Shown piece after piece: positions 28,706-36,606 of a stretch of DNA of 64,000 bases. Source of the DNA: Amycolatopsis umgeniensis. Lineage in GTDB: Bacteria; Actinomycetota; Actinomycetes; Mycobacteriales; Pseudonocardiaceae. The position numbers and the translations under genes are program-made. The stretch's first letter is position 1. Each line of letters opens with the position of its first letter. Below the pieces are notes generated by a model, which ran no database searches, was not told where the DNA came from, and was given only the letters and a program-made list of their open reading frames with translations. Where the stretch lies: the NCBI RefSeq assembly GCF_014205155.1, contig NZ_JACHMX010000001.1, positions 7,130,001 to 7,194,000 on the forward strand, in the 5' to 3' direction.

Positions 28706-28785
28706 TATTGCCGTGTCAACACCTGCGCCCGGGGCACCGCTCTGGGTAACGTAGGGGGTAGTCAGTCCTGGAAGGGAGGCGCGTG

Positions 28786-29232
28786 ATGACCGTGCTGTTG
28801 CGCGAGGCGATCGGCGACCGGCTCCGACACGCCCGCACGAACCAGCGTCGAACGCTGCGAGACATCTCCCGCGCCGCCAGGGTGAGCCTCGGCTACCTCT
28901 CCGAGGTCGAGCGTGGGCAGAAGGAGGCGTCCAGCGAGCTGCTGGCGTCCATTTGCGATGCCCTGGACCTTCCGCTGGGCGAACTCCTGCACAAGGTCGC
29001 GGCGGACGTCTCGGCGATGGACAACGTCGAGGTCGCCCCGGTGGACGAGAAGGTCGAGGCGGGCAAGAGGCGCGCTCCGGAGCGAGAGAGCGCCGAAGCG
29101 GGCCTCGAAGGTGGCCGACTGGTGTCCGAGCTGATCGGCAACGACCTTGCCGACCTGCGGATCTCCCCGCCGCCGCGGATGAGTCCCGCCCTGCGGACGA
29201 CCATTTCCGCACCGAAGATGGTCGCCGCTTAG
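28786..29232 (+). CDS. clgR: Clp-protease regulator ClgR
   Basis: A 148-residue XRE-type regulator. The helix-turn-helix is [33 protein letters not shown] (about residues 25-58). A polar linker and a C-terminal tail ending in APKMVAA follow; in relatives a C-terminal Ala-Ala makes ClgR a Clp substrate. The ATG at 28786 has GGGAGG six bases upstream. ClgR activates clp and, in mycobacteria, pspA genes. Here pspA lies 1.8 kb downstream, separated by an ECF41 pair and a strong terminator. Confidence 0.9.
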
Positions 29233-29285: not shown

Positions 29286-29771
29286 TCAGTTCACGACGGC
29301 GTCGAACGTGCCCGCCTGGTAGGAGCCGCCCTTGGTGTGGGTGATCACGAGCAGCCGGTTGGCGGCGTTGATCATCGCGACCAGGTAGACCAGCGCGGCG
29401 ACCTGATCATCGTCGTAGTGCTTCCGCACCCGGGACCAGGTCTCGTCCGAGACGCCCTGGTGCGCGTCGGCGAGGCGGCTGCCTTCCTCCGCGAAGGCCA
29501 GCGCTGCCCGCTCGGCCTCGGTGAACACGGTCGATTCGCGCCAGGCGGCGACCAGGTTGACGCGCACCGCGGGTTCGCCGGCGGCGGCCAGGTCCTTGGC
29601 GTGCGCGTCGACGCAGTAGCCGCAGCCGTTGAGCTGGCTGGCCCGCAGCGACACCAGCTCCTGGACGACCTTCGGCAGTGTCGAGCCTTTGATGCCGACA
29701 CTGACTCCTGCGAAGCGCTTGCCGAGCTTGGCGCCGAGCTCGTTGCTGTTCAGATCGAAACGGGAATCCAT
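29286..29771 (-). CDS. Carboxymuconolactone decarboxylase/AhpD-like protein (ECF41 partner)
   Basis: A 161-residue protein of the CMD/AhpD fold. The core is LRASQLNGCGYCVDAHAKDLAAAG, with the redox pair Cys-x2-Cys as in AhpD peroxidase-reducing proteins. The ATG at 29771 follows GAAGAGGGCG; the longer frame has no support. ECF41 sigma factors are typically encoded beside such COE genes and transcribe them. That is the arrangement here, with the sigma gene divergent across 171 bases. Its chemical role is not known. Confidence 0.88.
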   Translation of the reverse strand: MDSRFDLNSNELGAKLGKRFAGVSVGIKGSTLPKVVQELVSLRASQLNGCGYCVDAHAKDLAAAGEPAVRVNLVAAWRESTVFTEAERAALAFAEEGSRLADAHQGVSDETWSRVRKHYDDDQVAALVYLVAMINAANRLLVITHTKGGSYQAGTFDAVVN

Positions 29772-29833
29772 GGTCTCGCCCTCTTCGTGGTCGTGTGCTG
29801 AATCGAACGACCACCAGATGCCGGTGGGCGGGG

Positions 29834-29859
29834 CACGCTGACAGCGCGGGGCTGTGACG
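29834..29859 (-). promoter_or_regulatory. Candidate ECF41 promoter of the CMD gene
   Basis: On the minus strand CGTCACA (29859-29853) is followed after 15 bases by CGTG (29837-29834). The ECF41 consensus is close to TGTCACA, about 16 bases, then CGTC. The match is imperfect but correctly placed, about 60 bases upstream of the CMD start. Confidence 0.35.
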
Positions 29860-29877
29860 TGCGCCACGGCTCCGAAG

Positions 29878-29904
29878 TGTCAGAAACCGGCACCGCGCGG
29901 TGTC
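29878..29904 (+). promoter_or_regulatory. Candidate ECF41 self-promoter
   Basis: TGTCAGA at 29878-29884, 16 bases, then TGTC at 29901-29904, about 40 bases upstream of the sigma-factor start. It resembles the ECF41 consensus with one change in each element. Confidence 0.35.
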
Positions 29905-29942
29905 AGGTGGGGGACACCGTCGCGAGCAACCAGGAGCCGTTC

Positions 29943-30824
29943 ATGTCCGACCCCGCCACGGAGGCGTTCGTCGCCCACCGGAACCTGCTGTTCACCGTCG
30001 CCTACGAGATGCTCGGCTCGGCGGCCGACGCGGAGGACGTCCTCCAGGAGACCTGGTTGCGCTGGACGGGCGTCGATCTCGCCACCGTGGAGAACCCGCG
30101 GGCGTACCTGGTCCGCATCACCACCCGGCAGGCGCTCGGCAGGCTCCGCACACTCGGCCGCCGCAAGGAGTCCTACGTCGGCCCTTGGCTGCCCGAACCG
30201 CTGCTCACCACACCCGACGTGGCCGAGGATGTCGAGTTGGCCGACAGCGTCTCGATGGCGATGCTGCTGGTGCTGGAGACCCTCGCGCCGACCGAGCGCG
30301 CGGTGTTCGTGCTGCGCGAGGTGTTCGACGTGGCCTACGGCGAGATCGCCGAAGCCGTCGGCAAGACCCCGGCCGCGGTCCACCAGATCGCCCATCGCGC
30401 CCGGGCGCACGTCGCCGCCCGGCGGCCGCGCGGTGCCGCGTCCGCGGCCGAGACCCGGGACGTGCTCGACGCGTTCCACCGTGCCGTCCGGACGGGTGAT
30501 CTGCAGGGGCTGCTCGACGTCCTGGCACCGGACGTCGTCTTCCTCGGCGACGGCGGCGGAGTGGTGCAGGCCGTGCTCGAACCCCTGGTGGGGGCCTCGG
30601 TGATCGCGCCGCTGCTCGCCTCGAGCCATCCGATCCGGGACGACGCGGCGACGATGCGGACGGCGCAGGTCAACGGCCGTCCCGCGCTGGTCCTCCGGCT
30701 CGGCGGCGAGGTCGACACCGTCATCGCGCTGCGGGTCGAGGACGGCCTCATCACCGGGCTCTACGCCGTGCGCAACCCCGAGAAGTTGTCACGGATGGAA
30801 CAGGAGACCGCGCTGCGCCGCTGA
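29943..30824 (+). CDS. ECF41-type sigma factor with SnoaL-like C-terminal domain
   Basis: A 293-residue sigma factor; the ATG at 29943 has CAGGAG upstream. Region 2 is at about 8-72 and region 4 at about 100-160 (LAPTERAVFVLREVFDVAYGEIAEAVGKTPAAVHQI). A SnoaL-like domain occupies about 170-275. The ECF41 hallmarks WLPEPL (82-87) in the inter-region linker and NPDKL, here NPEKL (278-282), in the C-terminal domain are both present. ECF41 factors lack an anti-sigma protein and are controlled by this C-terminal domain. The divergent CMD gene is its likely target. Confidence 0.92.
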   Translation: MSDPATEAFVAHRNLLFTVAYEMLGSAADAEDVLQETWLRWTGVDLATVENPRAYLVRITTRQALGRLRTLGRRKESYVGPWLPEPLLTTPDVAEDVELADSVSMAMLLVLETLAPTERAVFVLREVFDVAYGEIAEAVGKTPAAVHQIAHRARAHVAARRPRGAASAAETRDVLDAFHRAVRTGDLQGLLDVLAPDVVFLGDGGGVVQAVLEPLVGASVIAPLLASSHPIRDDAATMRTAQVNGRPALVLRLGGEVDTVIALRVEDGLITGLYAVRNPEKLSRMEQETALRR

Positions 30825-30946
30825 CTCCGGCCGTTTTCACCCTGGGTCACCGTCGCGCGAACCCGAAAGTCGTGGACATCACAGTCAGGGGGATCCCTGA
30901 ATTCCGTCGGGGTCGCCTGGAACGCGGGACGCCGACCTGACACGAT

Positions 30947-30973
30947 GGAACTCAACGCCGGGGTCGGGACGTT
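30947..30973 (+). promoter_or_regulatory. Candidate extracytoplasmic sigma-E-like promoter of pspA
   Basis: GGAAC (30947-30951), 18 bases, then CGTT (30970-30973), the layout of actinobacterial SigE-type promoters that respond to envelope stress. It lies 70 bases upstream of the pspA start. Only one site with both elements was seen in the gap. Confidence 0.45.
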
Positions 30974-31043
30974 GCAACATCACAGAGGGGACGCCCCACC
31001 TCGAGGTAACAGCCCGTGGGATGCGAGAAGGCAGGCGGAGGAG

Positions 31044-31886
31044 ATGGCCAACCCGTTCGTGAAGTTCTGGAAGTACATGATGGCGGCGTTCTCGTCGAAG
31101 ATCGACGAGCACGCCGACCCGAAGGTACAGATCCAGCAGGCCATCGAGGAGGCACAGCGCAATCACCAGGCGCTGACCCAGCAGGCCGCCTCGGTGATCG
31201 GTAACCAGCGCCAGCTGGAGATGAAGCTGAACCGCCAGCTCGGCGACGTGGAGAAGCTGCAGGCTTCGACCCGTCAGGCGCTGGTGCTCGCCGACGAGGC
31301 GCGTGCCAAGGGCGACGAGCAGAAGGCGACAGAGTTCGAGAACGCGGCGGAGAGCTTCGCCGCGCAGCTCGTCACCGCCGAGCAGAGCATCGAGGACCTC
31401 AAGACCCTGCACGACCAGTCGCTTCAGGCTGCGGAGCAGGCGAAGAAGGCCGTCGAGCGCAACGCGACCATGCTGCAGCAGAAGCTGGCCGAGCGCACCA
31501 AGCTGCTCTCGCAGCTGGAGCAGGCGAAGATGCAGGAGCAGGTCTCCGCTTCGCTGAACCAGATGAGTCAGCTGGCCGCGCCGGGCAACACCCCGTCACT
31601 GGAAGACGTTCGCGACAAGATCGAGAAGCGCTACACCACGGCGCTCGGCTCGGCCGAACTCGCGCAGAACTCCGTCCAGGGCCGGATGATGGAGGTCCAG
31701 GCCTCCACGACGCAGCTCGCGGGGCACTCGCGACTGGAGCAGATCCGCGCTTCCATGAAGGGTGACTCCGTCGCGCAGGTGACCGACGGCAAGACCGCCG
31801 CCGCGCCGAAGGCGTCGAGCGGTGCGGACATCCAGCGTGAGATCCAGGCACGGGTTCAGGCCGAACAGGGCAAGAACCCCGCCTGA
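31044..31886 (+). CDS. pspA: Phage-shock protein A / IM30 family membrane-stress protein
   Basis: A 280-residue coiled-coil protein. The N-terminal amphipathic start ([21 protein letters not shown]) binds membrane. Long heptad-type helices follow to about residue 220, ending in a Lys/Ala-rich tail. PspA forms oligomers that support a damaged membrane. In mycobacteria the gene (35-kDa antigen, Rv2744c) follows clgR directly and is regulated by ClgR; here other genes intervene. The start is the ATG preceded by GGCGGAGGAG. Confidence 0.92.
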
Positions 31887-31900
31887 CACACCACCTAGAG

Positions 31901-31934
31901 CCGGTCCCGCACCCCCGCGCGGGTGCGGGACCGG
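31901..31934. terminator. Hairpin between pspA and pspM
   Basis: CCGGTCCCGCACCC (31901-31914) and GGGTGCGGGACCGG (31921-31934) form a perfect 14-base-pair stem with a six-base loop, 15 bases after the pspA stop and before the pspM ribosome site. It has no T tract, so it may attenuate transcription or stabilise pspA mRNA. Confidence 0.7.
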
Positions 31935-31961
31935 TCTCACCAGAAGACAGGGGCGAGGGAA

Positions 31962-32939
31962 ATGGGTCAGGGCAGGCGCAAGGACTTCGGGGAGTTCACC
32001 GCCAAGCTTGAGAAGCACATCGAAAAGCTGCCCGATTACGCCCAGCGCGCGCAGGAGAAGCTGCAGCGCTACATCCCGCCGTCCGAGCAACAGGGTTCTT
32101 CGCGGCCCGCGCCGTCCCGGCCCCGCCCGCAGATGCCGCAGATGCCCGCCATGCCGAAGATCTCGCAGCAGCTGACCTCGATGGCGTCGGGCCAGATCCC
32201 GGTGGTCGCCGAGGCGAAGGCCAAATGGGCCCGCTGGAACGAACCCGCCGCCAAACTGGAGAGACAGAAGCGCCGCACGTCCCGTGCGCTGACCTTCTGG
32301 ATCCTCCTCACCATCCTTTGTGGACTGTTCGCCTTCGTCGCGGGCGCCGGACTGTTGAAGTCGGGCGAGGCCGACGTCCTCCAGGCCATCGCGGGCGGCG
32401 CGTTCACCGTCATCTTCGGCACCTTCGGGGTCAAGTCGGGGCTGCGGCTGCGGTCGCTCAAACGCACCGTGCTGCCCGCCGCGCCCACCACCCCGCCGCC
32501 GCTGCCTCCGGCGCGGTCCGTCGCGCGGGAGCCGATGGAGCGCCTCGTCGAGAGCGAGGCTTCGCTGACGGAGCTGCTTCGCCAGCTCTCGCAGCCGACG
32601 TCGCTGGGCACCATGCCGGTGTCGGAGATCGCCGTGGCCGACGCCCGCACCACCGCCGCGGAGGCCGCGCAGGCCCTGCGCGGGCTGGCGGGCCGGATCC
32701 AGGCCATCGAACGCGGACGTGACTCCGCGCCCGAGCGGGAACGCGGCGCCCTCGACGCCGCCATCACGCAGCTGCGGGAGCAGCTCGACGACGGCGTCGA
32801 CGGCTACGGCGGTCTCGTCGCGGCCGCCGGGCACACCGTCGCCGCGAGCTCGGACGGCATGACTTCGTCCAAGGAATCGCTCTCCGACGCGACCGACAAG
32901 CTCGCCGGGCTGGCCATGGCCCTGCGCGAACTCTCCTGA
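31962..32939 (+). CDS. pspM: Phage-shock envelope-stress protein PspM-like
   Basis: A 325-residue membrane protein, with GAGGGA before the ATG at 31962. The cytoplasmic N-terminal 105 residues include a Pro/Met-rich stretch (PRPQMPQMPAMPK). Two membrane helices lie at about 108-130 and 139-158, and a helical, charged C-terminal domain follows. This layout and the position after pspA match Rv2743c/PspM of mycobacteria, which anchors PspA at the membrane. No Rv2742c (PspN) homologue follows; the next gene is amidase-like. The name rests on layout and synteny. Confidence 0.82.
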   Translation: MGQGRRKDFGEFTAKLEKHIEKLPDYAQRAQEKLQRYIPPSEQQGSSRPAPSRPRPQMPQMPAMPKISQQLTSMASGQIPVVAEAKAKWARWNEPAAKLERQKRRTSRALTFWILLTILCGLFAFVAGAGLLKSGEADVLQAIAGGAFTVIFGTFGVKSGLRLRSLKRTVLPAAPTTPPPLPPARSVAREPMERLVESEASLTELLRQLSQPTSLGTMPVSEIAVADARTTAAEAAQALRGLAGRIQAIERGRDSAPERERGALDAAITQLREQLDDGVDGYGGLVAAAGHTVAASSDGMTSSKESLSDATDKLAGLAMALRELS

Positions 32940-32947
32940 ACCCGTAA

Positions 32948-33039
32948 CTCGCGTGATCAGACGGACGACACGCGTGATTGAGCGGCGATCTCACGTGATT
33001 GAAGGCGGATCTCGCGTCATGTCCGTCTGATCACGCGAG
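32948..33039. repeat. 19-bp perfect inverted repeat with internal tandem units
   Basis: CTCGCGTGATCAGACGGAC (32948-32966) and its exact complement (33021-33039) bracket two imperfect 21-base units of the form CRCGTGATTGAGCGGCGATCT. Further half-copies continue in reverse orientation to about 33100. The rest of the 32940-33378 gap is relatively AT-rich and probably holds the promoter of the amidase-like gene. Confidence 0.75.
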
Positions 33040-33378
33040 ATCGCCTTACAATCACGTGAGTTCGGCCTTCAAGCACCCGAGTTCCGCCTTGGATCACGGG
33101 GGCTGAGCAGGCGCTTTCCTGGACAATCGTCCCATTCGTCGTTGCTAATACTCCATTGCGTAACGACTCGCTCACTGTGTGATACCGAAACGCTCGCGTG
33201 ACCCGGATCCGCTGGTGACGGGGCCGCGCGATGCCTAACGTTTCTCTCATGCACGCAGTGCTTCTCCCAGCTCGGGCCTGAACCCAGCCCGCGTGAGCGG
33301 GCGTCCCAGGGTGGCGGACCGGACACAGTGGATCTCGCGCAGTGGTCTTTCTCGTCCCCGCCGAGGAAAGGACGCCCA

Positions 33379-35013
33379 GTGACGACGCTTCCCCCGGAAC
33401 CAGAACCGATCCCCGTCCCTCCTCCCAGCTCCTACCAACGGGTCATCGCGGCCTACGACCGGATCGCCGAGGTCGACCGGCCCGACGTCTGGATCACCCT
33501 CCGTCCTCTGGAAGACGCCCTTGTGGACGCGAAGGCCGTCGACGAACGCCTGCGTGCGGGGACGGATCTCCCGCTCGCCGGAACCCTCGTGGCCGTCGCC
33601 GACGACATCGACGTCGCCGGACTTCCCACGGCGGGGGAGGACGTCTGCTGTGTCGGCGCCCCCGCCGTGTCCAGGCTGACAGCCGCAGGCGCGGTGGTGA
33701 TCGGCAAGACCAACCGTGACCGGTTCGGCAGCGATCTCGAGCACACCCACAGTCCGTACGGCGCCGTGAGCGCCGCGCTGAACACGGCCCGCGTCTCGGG
33801 GAGCGCGAGCAGCGGCGCGGCCGTCGCCGTCGCACTCGGCCTCGCCGATCTGGCAGTCGGCACGGATACGGCGGGAGCGGGCCGGGTGCCCGCGTCGCTC
33901 AACGGGATCGTCGGGATGAAACCGACGCTGGGCCTCGTGCCCAAGACGGGCGCCGCGCCGTGCGGCGGGATCGCCCTGTTCTCGCGCAGTCTCACGCTCG
34001 GCCAGCGCGCGCTGGGACTGATGACCGGTCCGGACGGGATCGACCCGCTCGCCCGTGACTGGCCCCCGGACGTCCGGCTCTCCGCGGGGGATCGGCCGAA
34101 GGTGGCGATCCCGGGCTCCGAAACGCTCACCGGTCTCTCGTTGCAGTCCCGATCCGGTTTCCTCGGCGCGGTTTCGGCGCTGCGGGCGTCCGGGGCCATC
34201 GTGGAGACGGTCGAGGTCACCGCGCTGCTGTCCGTGGGCGACCTGATCCACGACGACGGTTTCACCGCCGACAGGCAGCGCGTCGCCGAGGCCGGGATGC
34301 TCGCGCTCAGGATGCTGTCCGAGTACGACGCCCTGGTCCTGCCGACCGTTTTGGACCATCCCGAGATGTCCGAGGCGCTGTCCGATCCGGACGGTGTCGC
34401 GAAACGGCTGGAGAAGTTCACCGCGTTCGTCAACCTGCTCGACCTCGCCGCGGTCACGGTGCCGTCGTCGCCGTCGGATCTCGGGCCGTACGGGGTGTCG
34501 GTGGTGGTGCGTCCGTTCGACGACCAGGTCGCCATCGACCTCGCCGCCGTGCTCACCGACGAACAGGCCGAATTCCCTTATCCAGCACCGGGCGCGGATC
34601 TCGTGGTGTTCGGCGCGCACCTGCGCGGACAGCCGCTGAACGACTGCCTGGTGACAGCGGGGGCGCGGTTCACCGGGCCGGTCCAGACCGCCGAGGGCTA
34701 TCGGATGGTGCTGCTGCCGACAGCGCCGCCGCAGCCGGGTGTGGTGCCGGTGAGCGCCGCGGGCGAGCACACGATGCTGTCGGGTGAACGCTGGCGACTC
34801 TCGCCCGCCGCTCTCGGCGCCTTCGCGGCCACGCTGCCCGCTCCGTTCGTCCTCGGCCGGATCCGGCTGGAGAACGGCGAAACCCCGCTGGCCGTCCTTT
34901 GTGACCAGGCGGCCGCGGCGACGGCGACGGAGCTGACGCGGTACCAGTGCTGGCGGGCGTACCTGAGGTTCGTCAGTACGGCCGGGCCGCGAGACCTCGG
35001 GCGACCCGCTTGA
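33379..35013 (+). CDS. Allophanate hydrolase-like protein lacking the catalytic triad
   Basis: A 544-residue protein with an amidase-signature domain (about 20-400) and the AtzF-type C-terminal domain ([22 protein letters not shown], about 410-535). Allophanate hydrolases split allophanate to ammonia and CO2 in urea use. The required triad is Lys, cis-Ser, Ser; spacings 69 and 24 residues place these at 74, 143 and 167. All three are Ala here: [21 protein letters not shown] and [11 protein letters not shown]. The frame is intact with normal codon use, so it is probably a retained pseudoenzyme. No urea carboxylase is adjacent. It starts at GTG after AAAGGA. Confidence 0.88.
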
Positions 35014-36022
35014 CCAGACCGGGACCGTGCAGGGCGAAACCGGAGTAGAGCTGGACGAGACCGGCGCCGGCGTCGAGCATCCGGGCGGCGGCGCCGGCGT
35101 CGAAGATCCCGCCGACGCCGATGATCGGCAGCTTGCCGCCGGTTTCGCCGTGCACGAAGCGCACCACCTCGACCGCGCGTGCGGTGAGCGGGCGGCCGGA
35201 AAGCCCGCCCGCTTGCTCGCCGACGGAGGCCTCGACGGGCGCGATCCCTTCGCGGGACAGCGTCGTGTTGGTCGCGATCAGCCCGGCGACACCGTGTTCG
35301 AGGCAGACCTCCAGCAGCTCCGCGAGCGCTTCGTCGGTGAGGTCGGGGGCGACCTTCACCAGCACCGGCGTCGGTTCGGCGTCGCCCGCGAGCTCGGCCG
35401 AAGTCCCACGCAGTTCGGAGAGCAGTTCGGCGAGCGCGGACTTGTCCTGCAGCGCCCGCAGTCCCGGTGTGTTGGGTGAACTGACGTTGATCGCGAAGTA
35501 GTCGGCGTACGGGTGCAGCGCCCGCAGCGAGAACCGGTAGTCCTCGACGGCCTCGTCGAGCGGGGTCACCTTGGACTTGCCGATGCTGACGCCGAGCGGC
35601 ACCGGCGGCTTCCCGCCCGCGGCGAGGCGGGCGGCGAGCGCTTCCGCGCCTTCGTTGTTGAAGCCCATCCGGTTGATCACCGCGTCGGTCTCGGCGAGGG
35701 TGAACAACCTCGGCTTGTCGTTGCCCGGCTGCGGATGCCGGGTGACCGTGCCGACCTCGACGAAACCGAAACCGAGCGCGGGCCAGGCGTGCAGCGCGCG
35801 GCCGTTCTTGTCCATCCCGGCGGCGAGGCCGACCCGGTTCGGGAAGCGGAGCCCGAGGAAGGTGACCGGATCGTCCGTCCGGTAGACGCGGCCGAGCGCG
35901 CCGAGCGCGGGAGAGACCCGGCTCAGCCTGGCGAGCGTGCCGATGGTGCGTTCGTGCACGGTTTCGGGGTCGCCGCCGGAGACCCGGTACAGCGCGGGGC
36001 GGACGATCTTGTCGAAGAACAC
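34973..36022 (-). CDS. pyrD: Quinone-dependent dihydroorotate dehydrogenase
   Basis: A class 2 DHODH of 349 residues, membrane-associated, oxidising dihydroorotate to orotate in pyrimidine synthesis. The N-terminal helix region [14 protein letters not shown] is typical of class 2. FMN/substrate motifs include [19 protein letters not shown] and [12 protein letters not shown], which carries the catalytic Ser of class 2. The GTG at 36022 is chosen; codons further upstream overlap the GNAT gene. The 3' end overlaps the convergent amidase-like gene by 41 bases. Confidence 0.95.
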
Positions 36023-36045
36023 GCGCCCATCATGCCTGGTGAGCT

Positions 36046-36606
36046 CTAGCGGCTCGCCTTCCACTCGTCTTCGAGCATCGCGAAGACGAGTTCGTCACAC
36101 CACTCGCCCTTGACGATCTCGTTCTCCCGGAGATGGGCCTCTTTGCGCATCCCGAGGCGTTCCATCAGGGTGGAGGAAGCGGTGTTGCGGCCGTCACAGC
36201 GACCGATGATCCGGTGCAGTCCGAGGTCTTCGAAGCCGAGCCGCAGCAGTTCGACGGCGGCCTCCGCGGCGAACCCCTTGCCGTGGTGATCGGGATGGAA
36301 CACGAAACCGACCTCGCCCTGACGGTGTTCGCTGCTGAGGTACTCGAGGTTCAGATCGCCGATGAGCTGCCCGGTCTCGGTCAGTTCCACGGCCACCGCC
36401 AGGAACTGGCCTTCCTTCGACAGGCTGCTGCTGTGCACCCGTTTGGCGAGCGCGGCGGCGGATTCGGCCCGGCTGCGCGGACCCCAGTAGAGATAGCGGG
36501 CGACGTCGGCGCGGGACTGGAAGGAGTTGAGTTCGTCGAGATCCGCCGGCGTGAAGGCGCGGAGGGTCAGGCGCTGGGTTTTGATCGGGAAAGCGGGCCT
36601 CAGCAT
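36046..36606 (-). CDS. GNAT N-acetyltransferase (RimJ/RimL-like)
   Basis: A 186-residue acetyltransferase. Motifs: [17 protein letters not shown] at the N-terminus, [35 protein letters not shown] in the acetyl-CoA region (loop HHGKGFA) and [21 protein letters not shown]. This layout is that of the RimJ/L group, which acetylates protein or amino-acid amines. The substrate is unknown. The gene is followed 24 bases later by pyrD on the same strand. Confidence 0.88.

Follow-up and report, generated by a model that had tools for sequence, protein, structure and literature searches.

The psp-pyrD locus of Amycolatopsis umgeniensis

We identified a gene encoding a pseudo-amidase in a 64,000-nucleotide stretch of DNA (hereafter the window) from Amycolatopsis umgeniensis, the genome of which (9.2 Mb) consists of one contig. 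The gene order at the locus is cinA-clgR-pspA-pspM-X-pyrD, where X is the pseudo-amidase gene and where cinA through pspM lie upstream on the same strand (Table 1). Beyond pyrD, a GNAT gene is followed by an adenosine deaminase family gene. The regulator gene is presumably clgR, a name which we assign from its position before pspA. The interval between clgR and pspA (29286-30824) contains a gene that reads as AhpD-like and a gene for an ECF sigma factor recognized by Pfam; the match to the ECF sigma gene is absent or partial in L047, L048, L052, and L109. The GTG start codon of the pseudo-amidase gene is preceded by a ribosome-binding-like stretch (GAGGAAAGGA). Direct and inverted repeats resembling TCACGYGA were noted by eye as a cluster at 32940-33200, between pspM and the pseudo-amidase gene. 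A simple pattern for a ClgR-like box gave no match upstream of the pseudo-amidase gene, while the same pattern matched upstream of clgR, and a sigma-70 promoter scan of 30700-36200 found no promoter.

Table 1. Features at the psp-pyrD locus, with positions in the window.
Feature	Position	Strand	Basis or remark
ClgR-like HTH regulator	28783..29232	+	HTH_31/HTH_3
pspA	30945..31886	+	PF04012, E 6.5e-45
pspM (Rv2743c family), upstream neighbor	31923..32939	+	PF25587, E 7.5e-79
Pseudo-allophanate hydrolase (AtzF-like) gene	33379..35013	+	ORF, Pfam, orthologues
Amidase-signature domain, best Pfam stretch, residues 24-288	33448..34242	+	PF01425; predicted catalytically dead by sequence
Codon 74, catalytic Lys position, GCC (Ala)	33598..33600	+	alignment, codon reading
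Codon 143, cis-Ser position, GCG (Ala)	33805..33807	+	alignment, codon reading
Codon 167, nucleophile Ser position, GCG (Ala)	33877..33879	+	alignment, codon reading
AH_C domain	34597..34965	+	PF21986; part better preserved across dead clades
pyrD (dihydroorotate dehydrogenase)	34973..36064	-	convergent; 41-base overlap with the pseudo-amidase ORF

In the genus, pyrD adjoins all 72 copies that could be scored and pspM adjoins 71, the remaining locus (L079) being truncated at a contig edge. The same order is also found in other genera of the family. Because pyrD is equally linked, the linkage is not specific to psp. In the genus, pspM is mostly separated from the pseudo-amidase gene by about 200-700 bases (>1 kb in five loci); in other genera this gap measures about 40-300 bases, often 75-160, with start codons guessed in both cases. 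We describe the locus order as synteny, which does not imply an operon or co-transcription. In an order sample of 131 genomes, for which listed coordinates were compared by eye and in which draft genomes with AH_C and PspM on separate contigs could not be judged, AH_C lies near PspM in eight genomes, all of the family of the window, and no adjacent AH_C-PspM pair was seen outside this family. In two genomes, a gene which appears to encode a Uma2-family nuclease is located between pspM and pyrD (L127:5390-6205 and L128:1317-2051); in L128 it lies beside broken pseudo-amidase fragments.

The corresponding operon of M. tuberculosis is clgR-pspA-pspM-pspN, in which PspN (Rv2742c) has the position after pspM, as has the window gene (PMC11237479). 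Unlike PspN, the window protein shows no DUF3046 match and consists of Amidase and AH_C only. Amidase and allophanate are each mentioned zero times in the main text of that paper.

The encoded protein resembles allophanate hydrolases and lacks the catalytic triad

The open frame encodes a protein of 544 amino acids. Profile searches identified Pfam Amidase (PF01425; E 1.9e-46, 159.5 bits, cut-off 27) followed by AH_C (PF21986; E 3.5e-34, 117.9 bits, cut-off 27), and no further Pfam match, including DUF3046, at E up to 1. The scores for the TIGR02713 equivalog (354.9 bits, cut-off 511.05) and for PRK08186 (423.8, cut-off 487) remained below the cut-offs. The closest solved proteins by sequence are the allophanate hydrolases 4gyr and 4iss.

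The protein matches the amidase-signature profile and lacks the Ser-cisSer-Lys triad. Alignment to 4gyr and 4iss fixed the triad columns at residues 74, 143, and 167, with a spacing of 69 and 24 residues and ungapped motifs. The original prediction had derived the same positions from motif spacing and had stated that all three codons encode Ala, which was confirmed by reading the codons in the sequence (Table 1). An intact K/S/S at other positions of the protein is ruled out by the alignment with the solved structures. The original prediction further held that the surrounding amidase frame is intact and that only the triad was neatly removed, and neither statement could be upheld: other residues conserved in AtzF are altered as well (e.g., G142S, S147A, Q115R, G119D, and Y291H), seven columns conserved in AtzF are absent between residues 299 and 302, many other residues of the active-site region and one segment have also gone, and in sister clades different substitutions or deletion of the motifs removed the triad. 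In clade I, the group of orthologues to which the window protein belongs, the column of the conserved Tyr (291) is His and Arg299 is kept; we take this pair to be substrate-binding in the known enzymes. Judged from its sequence, the window protein is predicted not to hydrolyze allophanate.

An AlphaFold model of the window protein, made with 15 sequences, has a mean pLDDT of 56.8 and is too weak for analysis of a pocket. Allophanate hydrolases are its best fold matches, and the AH_C part of the model resembles 5c5z (TM 0.81 by the length of the target); because the model is of low confidence, these matches are of little weight, AH_C perhaps excepted. AtzF (TIGR02713, PRK08186; 4gyr, 4iss, 4cp8) has the same order of amidase and AH_C and is the best match both by sequence and by the fold of the weak model, but the window protein differs from AtzF in that it lacks the triad, has many conserved residues changed and scores below the NCBIfam cut-offs, and its gene does not adjoin urea carboxylase. 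AH_C is shared (E 1e-9) with the stand-alone AH_C protein 5c5z (UPEC c4763), whereas the window protein still has a body of about 400 residues that derives from an amidase. Elsewhere in the genome of the window, a third AH_C place (L197:2738-3094; C1:2135237-2135593, minus strand) apparently encodes a stand-alone AH_C protein and is situated at the end of an NCS2-type (purine/uracil) permease-like gene, named from its translation. The amidase homologues Toc64/OM64 of plant protein import have lost catalytic activity, and the window protein may work in a similar way, by reuse of the amidase fold without catalysis, although it is bacterial, has no TPR domain and carries AH_C. Literature searches found nothing joining the amidase signature with the term pseudoenzyme; matches for allophanate together with phage shock protein, and a match for allophanate hydrolase together with Amycolatopsis, were judged unrelated from listings.

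Distribution and history of triad loss

Among 80 Amycolatopsis genomes, a scorable copy was present at the locus in 72, of which 61 have lost triad residues and 11 have kept K/S/S. The remaining genomes have no copy between pspM and pyrD (six), broken fragments (one, G004) or a contig edge at the locus (one). Clade I comprises 19 genomes including that of the window (532-547 amino acids). Positions 143 and 167 are Ala in 19/19 of these copies and position 74 is Ala in 16, Ser in two and Val in one; conservation of the three Ala residues, the check proposed in the original prediction, holds in these copies for the two Ser positions and is incomplete at the Lys position. In clade III (26 genomes; 467-481 amino acids as aligned) the Lys is replaced and both Ser motifs are partly deleted, and larger deletions are found in clade IV (10 genomes; 432-443 amino acids as aligned) and clade V (four genomes). 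In clade IV a Ser is present in the nucleophile column in 7/10 rows, yet the motif is gone. In the genus, L102 (K to T) and L107 (cis-Ser to Ala) have each lost a single triad residue.

Elsewhere in the family, outside the genus, the triad is lost in 22 of the 24 scored psp- or pyrD-linked copies (one of which, L173, is linked through pyrD only), and K/S/S is present in L055 and L145 only. K/S/S is present in each of the 41 distinct homologues whose flanks (about 2-6 kb) showed no psp or pyrD match; the copies were drawn from the best listed matches of genome searches and are not a random sample. Excluded from the counts were the short frames L188 and L190, which lack the triad columns, L123 at a contig edge, the fragments of L128, L198 (G104), and loci under 5500 bases. 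L188 and L190, from the pyrD-linked locus of two draft genomes, have open frames of 292 and 350 amino acids and are possibly decayed or misassembled. A plasmid search returned 693 matching records, every one under 60% identity.

A tree of 77 rows was constructed with the triad columns removed, including 22 of the 41 copies from elsewhere. A branch with an SH-aLRT of 99 has these 22 copies on one side. The triad state requires at least six changes on this tree, and about eight losses were counted by eye if loss is taken as irreversible. Clades III and IV, L102, L107, and the g26 group are each placed within supported groups that contain intact copies, with some deep forks being weak. A single loss, for which the 43 lost rows were forced into one clade, was rejected (p-AU 0.000635; 756.6 log units worse, quick tree). 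These data show that triad loss occurred several times at the psp-pyrD locus. Such repeated loss of the active site in related species, in a protein that is still protected by selection, suggests that it has taken on a new role.

Selection on triad-less copies

Pooled pairwise dN/dS (Nei-Gojobori) was calculated for the N part (residues 20-400) and for AH_C. The ratios (N part/AH_C) are 0.165/0.152 in clade I (14 rows), 0.353/0.270 in clade III (25 rows), 0.238/0.143 in clade IV (10 rows), 0.296/0.158 in clade V (four rows), 0.224/0.169 in group g24 (eight rows) and 0.400/0.407 in group g26 (five rows). The mostly intact clade II (nine rows) gave 0.272/0.318 and AtzF elsewhere in the genus (six rows) 0.278/0.221. 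With overall values of 0.14-0.41, the dead copies are under purifying selection. AH_C is significantly tighter than the N part (bootstrap) only in clades IV and V; the interval of their ratio includes 1 in clades I and III and in g24, and g26 showed no difference. In the 10 gapless clade I copies, the variable fraction is 0.21, 0.12, and 0.60 at codon positions 1, 2, and 3, respectively. An antisense gene as the source of the constraint was rejected, as the coding pattern lies in the sense frame; one antisense frame is stop-free in six of these 10 copies and has stops in four.

The non-catalytic role which the original prediction considered possible is supported by the dN/dS of about 0.16 in the clade, the predominance of third-codon variation and the intact AtzF elsewhere in the genome, and ordinary decay, its stated alternative, is not borne out by the dN/dS of the dead copies. 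A retained non-amidase function is well supported.

Conservation of AH_C

The part of the protein on which this function rests was addressed with 138 conserved columns defined from the 41 intact copies. The dead groups kept a fraction of 0.23-0.64 of these columns in the N domain and 0.62-0.94 in AH_C. For AH_C the fraction is 0.90 in clade I, 0.84 in III, 0.80 in IV, and 0.94 in g26, with the lowest values in V (0.62) and g24 (0.68); for the N domain it is 0.64 in I, 0.42 in III, 0.29 in IV, and 0.32 in g26. Residues Y441, R442, E470, W472, and W525 are kept in all dead groups; V, g24, and the mixed group 'oth' lack H414. That the retained function rests on AH_C is moderately supported.

It is conceivable, if doubtful, that AH_C alone is still an enzyme, that the N-terminal body is vestigial and that the psp neighborhood is an accidental frozen gene order. 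The five residues kept throughout, the existence of stand-alone AH_C proteins (5c5z by sequence and the third AH_C place in the genome of the window) and the frequent conservation of the pyrD, GNAT, and deaminase neighbors would fit this explanation, but H414 is lost in several dead groups, and the N part is not mere ballast because it is still under purifying selection.

Relation to urea metabolism

The genome of the window contains an AtzF with K/S/S immediately after the urea carboxylase part (CT_C_D and biotin domain), about 365 kb from the pseudo-amidase gene; a second, intact copy, for which a search had been proposed, is thus present in the same genome. AtzF and urea carboxylase were searched for in the genus with a limit of E 1e-90, and the genome counts refer to species, which are not independent events. 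In 51 genomes, both urea carboxylase and a separate AtzF were found; 47 of these genomes are triad-lost at the psp locus (19 of clade I, 26 of clade III, L102, and L107) and four K/S/S. G071 and G079 contain urea carboxylase, a separate AtzF was not found, and both have K/S/S at the psp locus; their intact psp-locus copies (L105 and L104, respectively) are the only AtzF and offer a natural test of the activity of this copy. Five genomes have K/S/S at the locus and neither AtzF nor urea carboxylase was found in them. The triad of the separate AtzF is K/S/S in 7/7 genomes looked at. Redundancy is not the whole story, because four K/S/S copies occur together with a separate AtzF and five occur with neither gene. 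The locus copy is plausibly a working AtzF in some species, and in other species it is retained in genomes in which an allophanate pathway was not detected (E 1e-90).

The dead copy could act as a regulatory subunit, adjusting urea use through mixed dimers with the separate AtzF. In all 45 genomes of the dead clades I and III, both urea carboxylase and a separate AtzF are present (the AtzF triad is K/S/S in each of the five examined, G000, G008, G014, G050, and G065), and AH domains dimerize in the K. lactis urea amidolyase (PMC5770610). We nevertheless consider this role unlikely, as a dead copy is present in 14 genomes (clades IV and V) in which AtzF and urea carboxylase were not found (E 1e-90), and the dead copy and AtzF are far apart in the genome of the window.

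Interpretation of the locus

A still less likely explanation is a pseudogene in slow decay, a useless enzyme that is eroding and of which the open frames are leftovers. The gene is dispensable and capable of true decay, because it is absent in six genomes and present only as fragments in G004; the shorter forms in clades III and IV and the two short open frames in other draft genomes (L188 and L190) point in the same direction. However, dN/dS is far below 1 in each dead clade measured, which largely refutes decay, variation is dominated by third positions, 19/19 clade I copies are open over their full length, and AGGAAAGGA is located upstream of the start in 10/10 clade IV loci. A plain pseudogene was rejected on the basis of dN/dS and the open frames. 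A new active site, through which the pocket would process another substrate in the absence of the Ser-cisSer-Lys triad, would agree with the purifying selection on the N part of clade I (0.165) and is very improbable, as the motif loops themselves are deleted in clades III and IV.

We favor, with a probability of roughly 0.6, the explanation that the gene at the psp-pyrD locus is a former allophanate hydrolase which lost its amidase chemistry many times within this family of actinomycetes and was kept for another job. The ancestor at the locus would have been a catalytic allophanate hydrolase, and catalysis would have been lost in the copies that lack the triad. A second, urea-carboxylase-linked AtzF may have made the local copy redundant in some lineages. 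The gene may then have survived through a function of AH_C, either the binding of a ligand or chemistry that AH_C has retained, and the trimmed amidase fold would probably serve as a scaffold or dimerization body. More speculatively, the protein might be a soluble partner of the neighboring PspA/PspM envelope-stress module; we hypothesize its membership in the Psp system from synteny. The more specific proposal that an allophanate hydrolase was recruited to the Psp locus and became, several times and independently, a sensor or adaptor for PspA/PspM that is based on AH_C and has no catalytic activity is tentative and, in our view, rather doubtful.

At one fixed position, the psp-pyrD locus shows natural stages that range from the intact enzyme to a pseudoenzyme with deleted motifs, the intact paralogues elsewhere serving as a control, and with this series the transition from enzyme to non-enzyme is directly testable. 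The protein is a possible unnoticed partner of the actinobacterial envelope-stress system and, if this is true, the AH_C-based sensor or adaptor would be a so far undescribed component of the Psp stress system.
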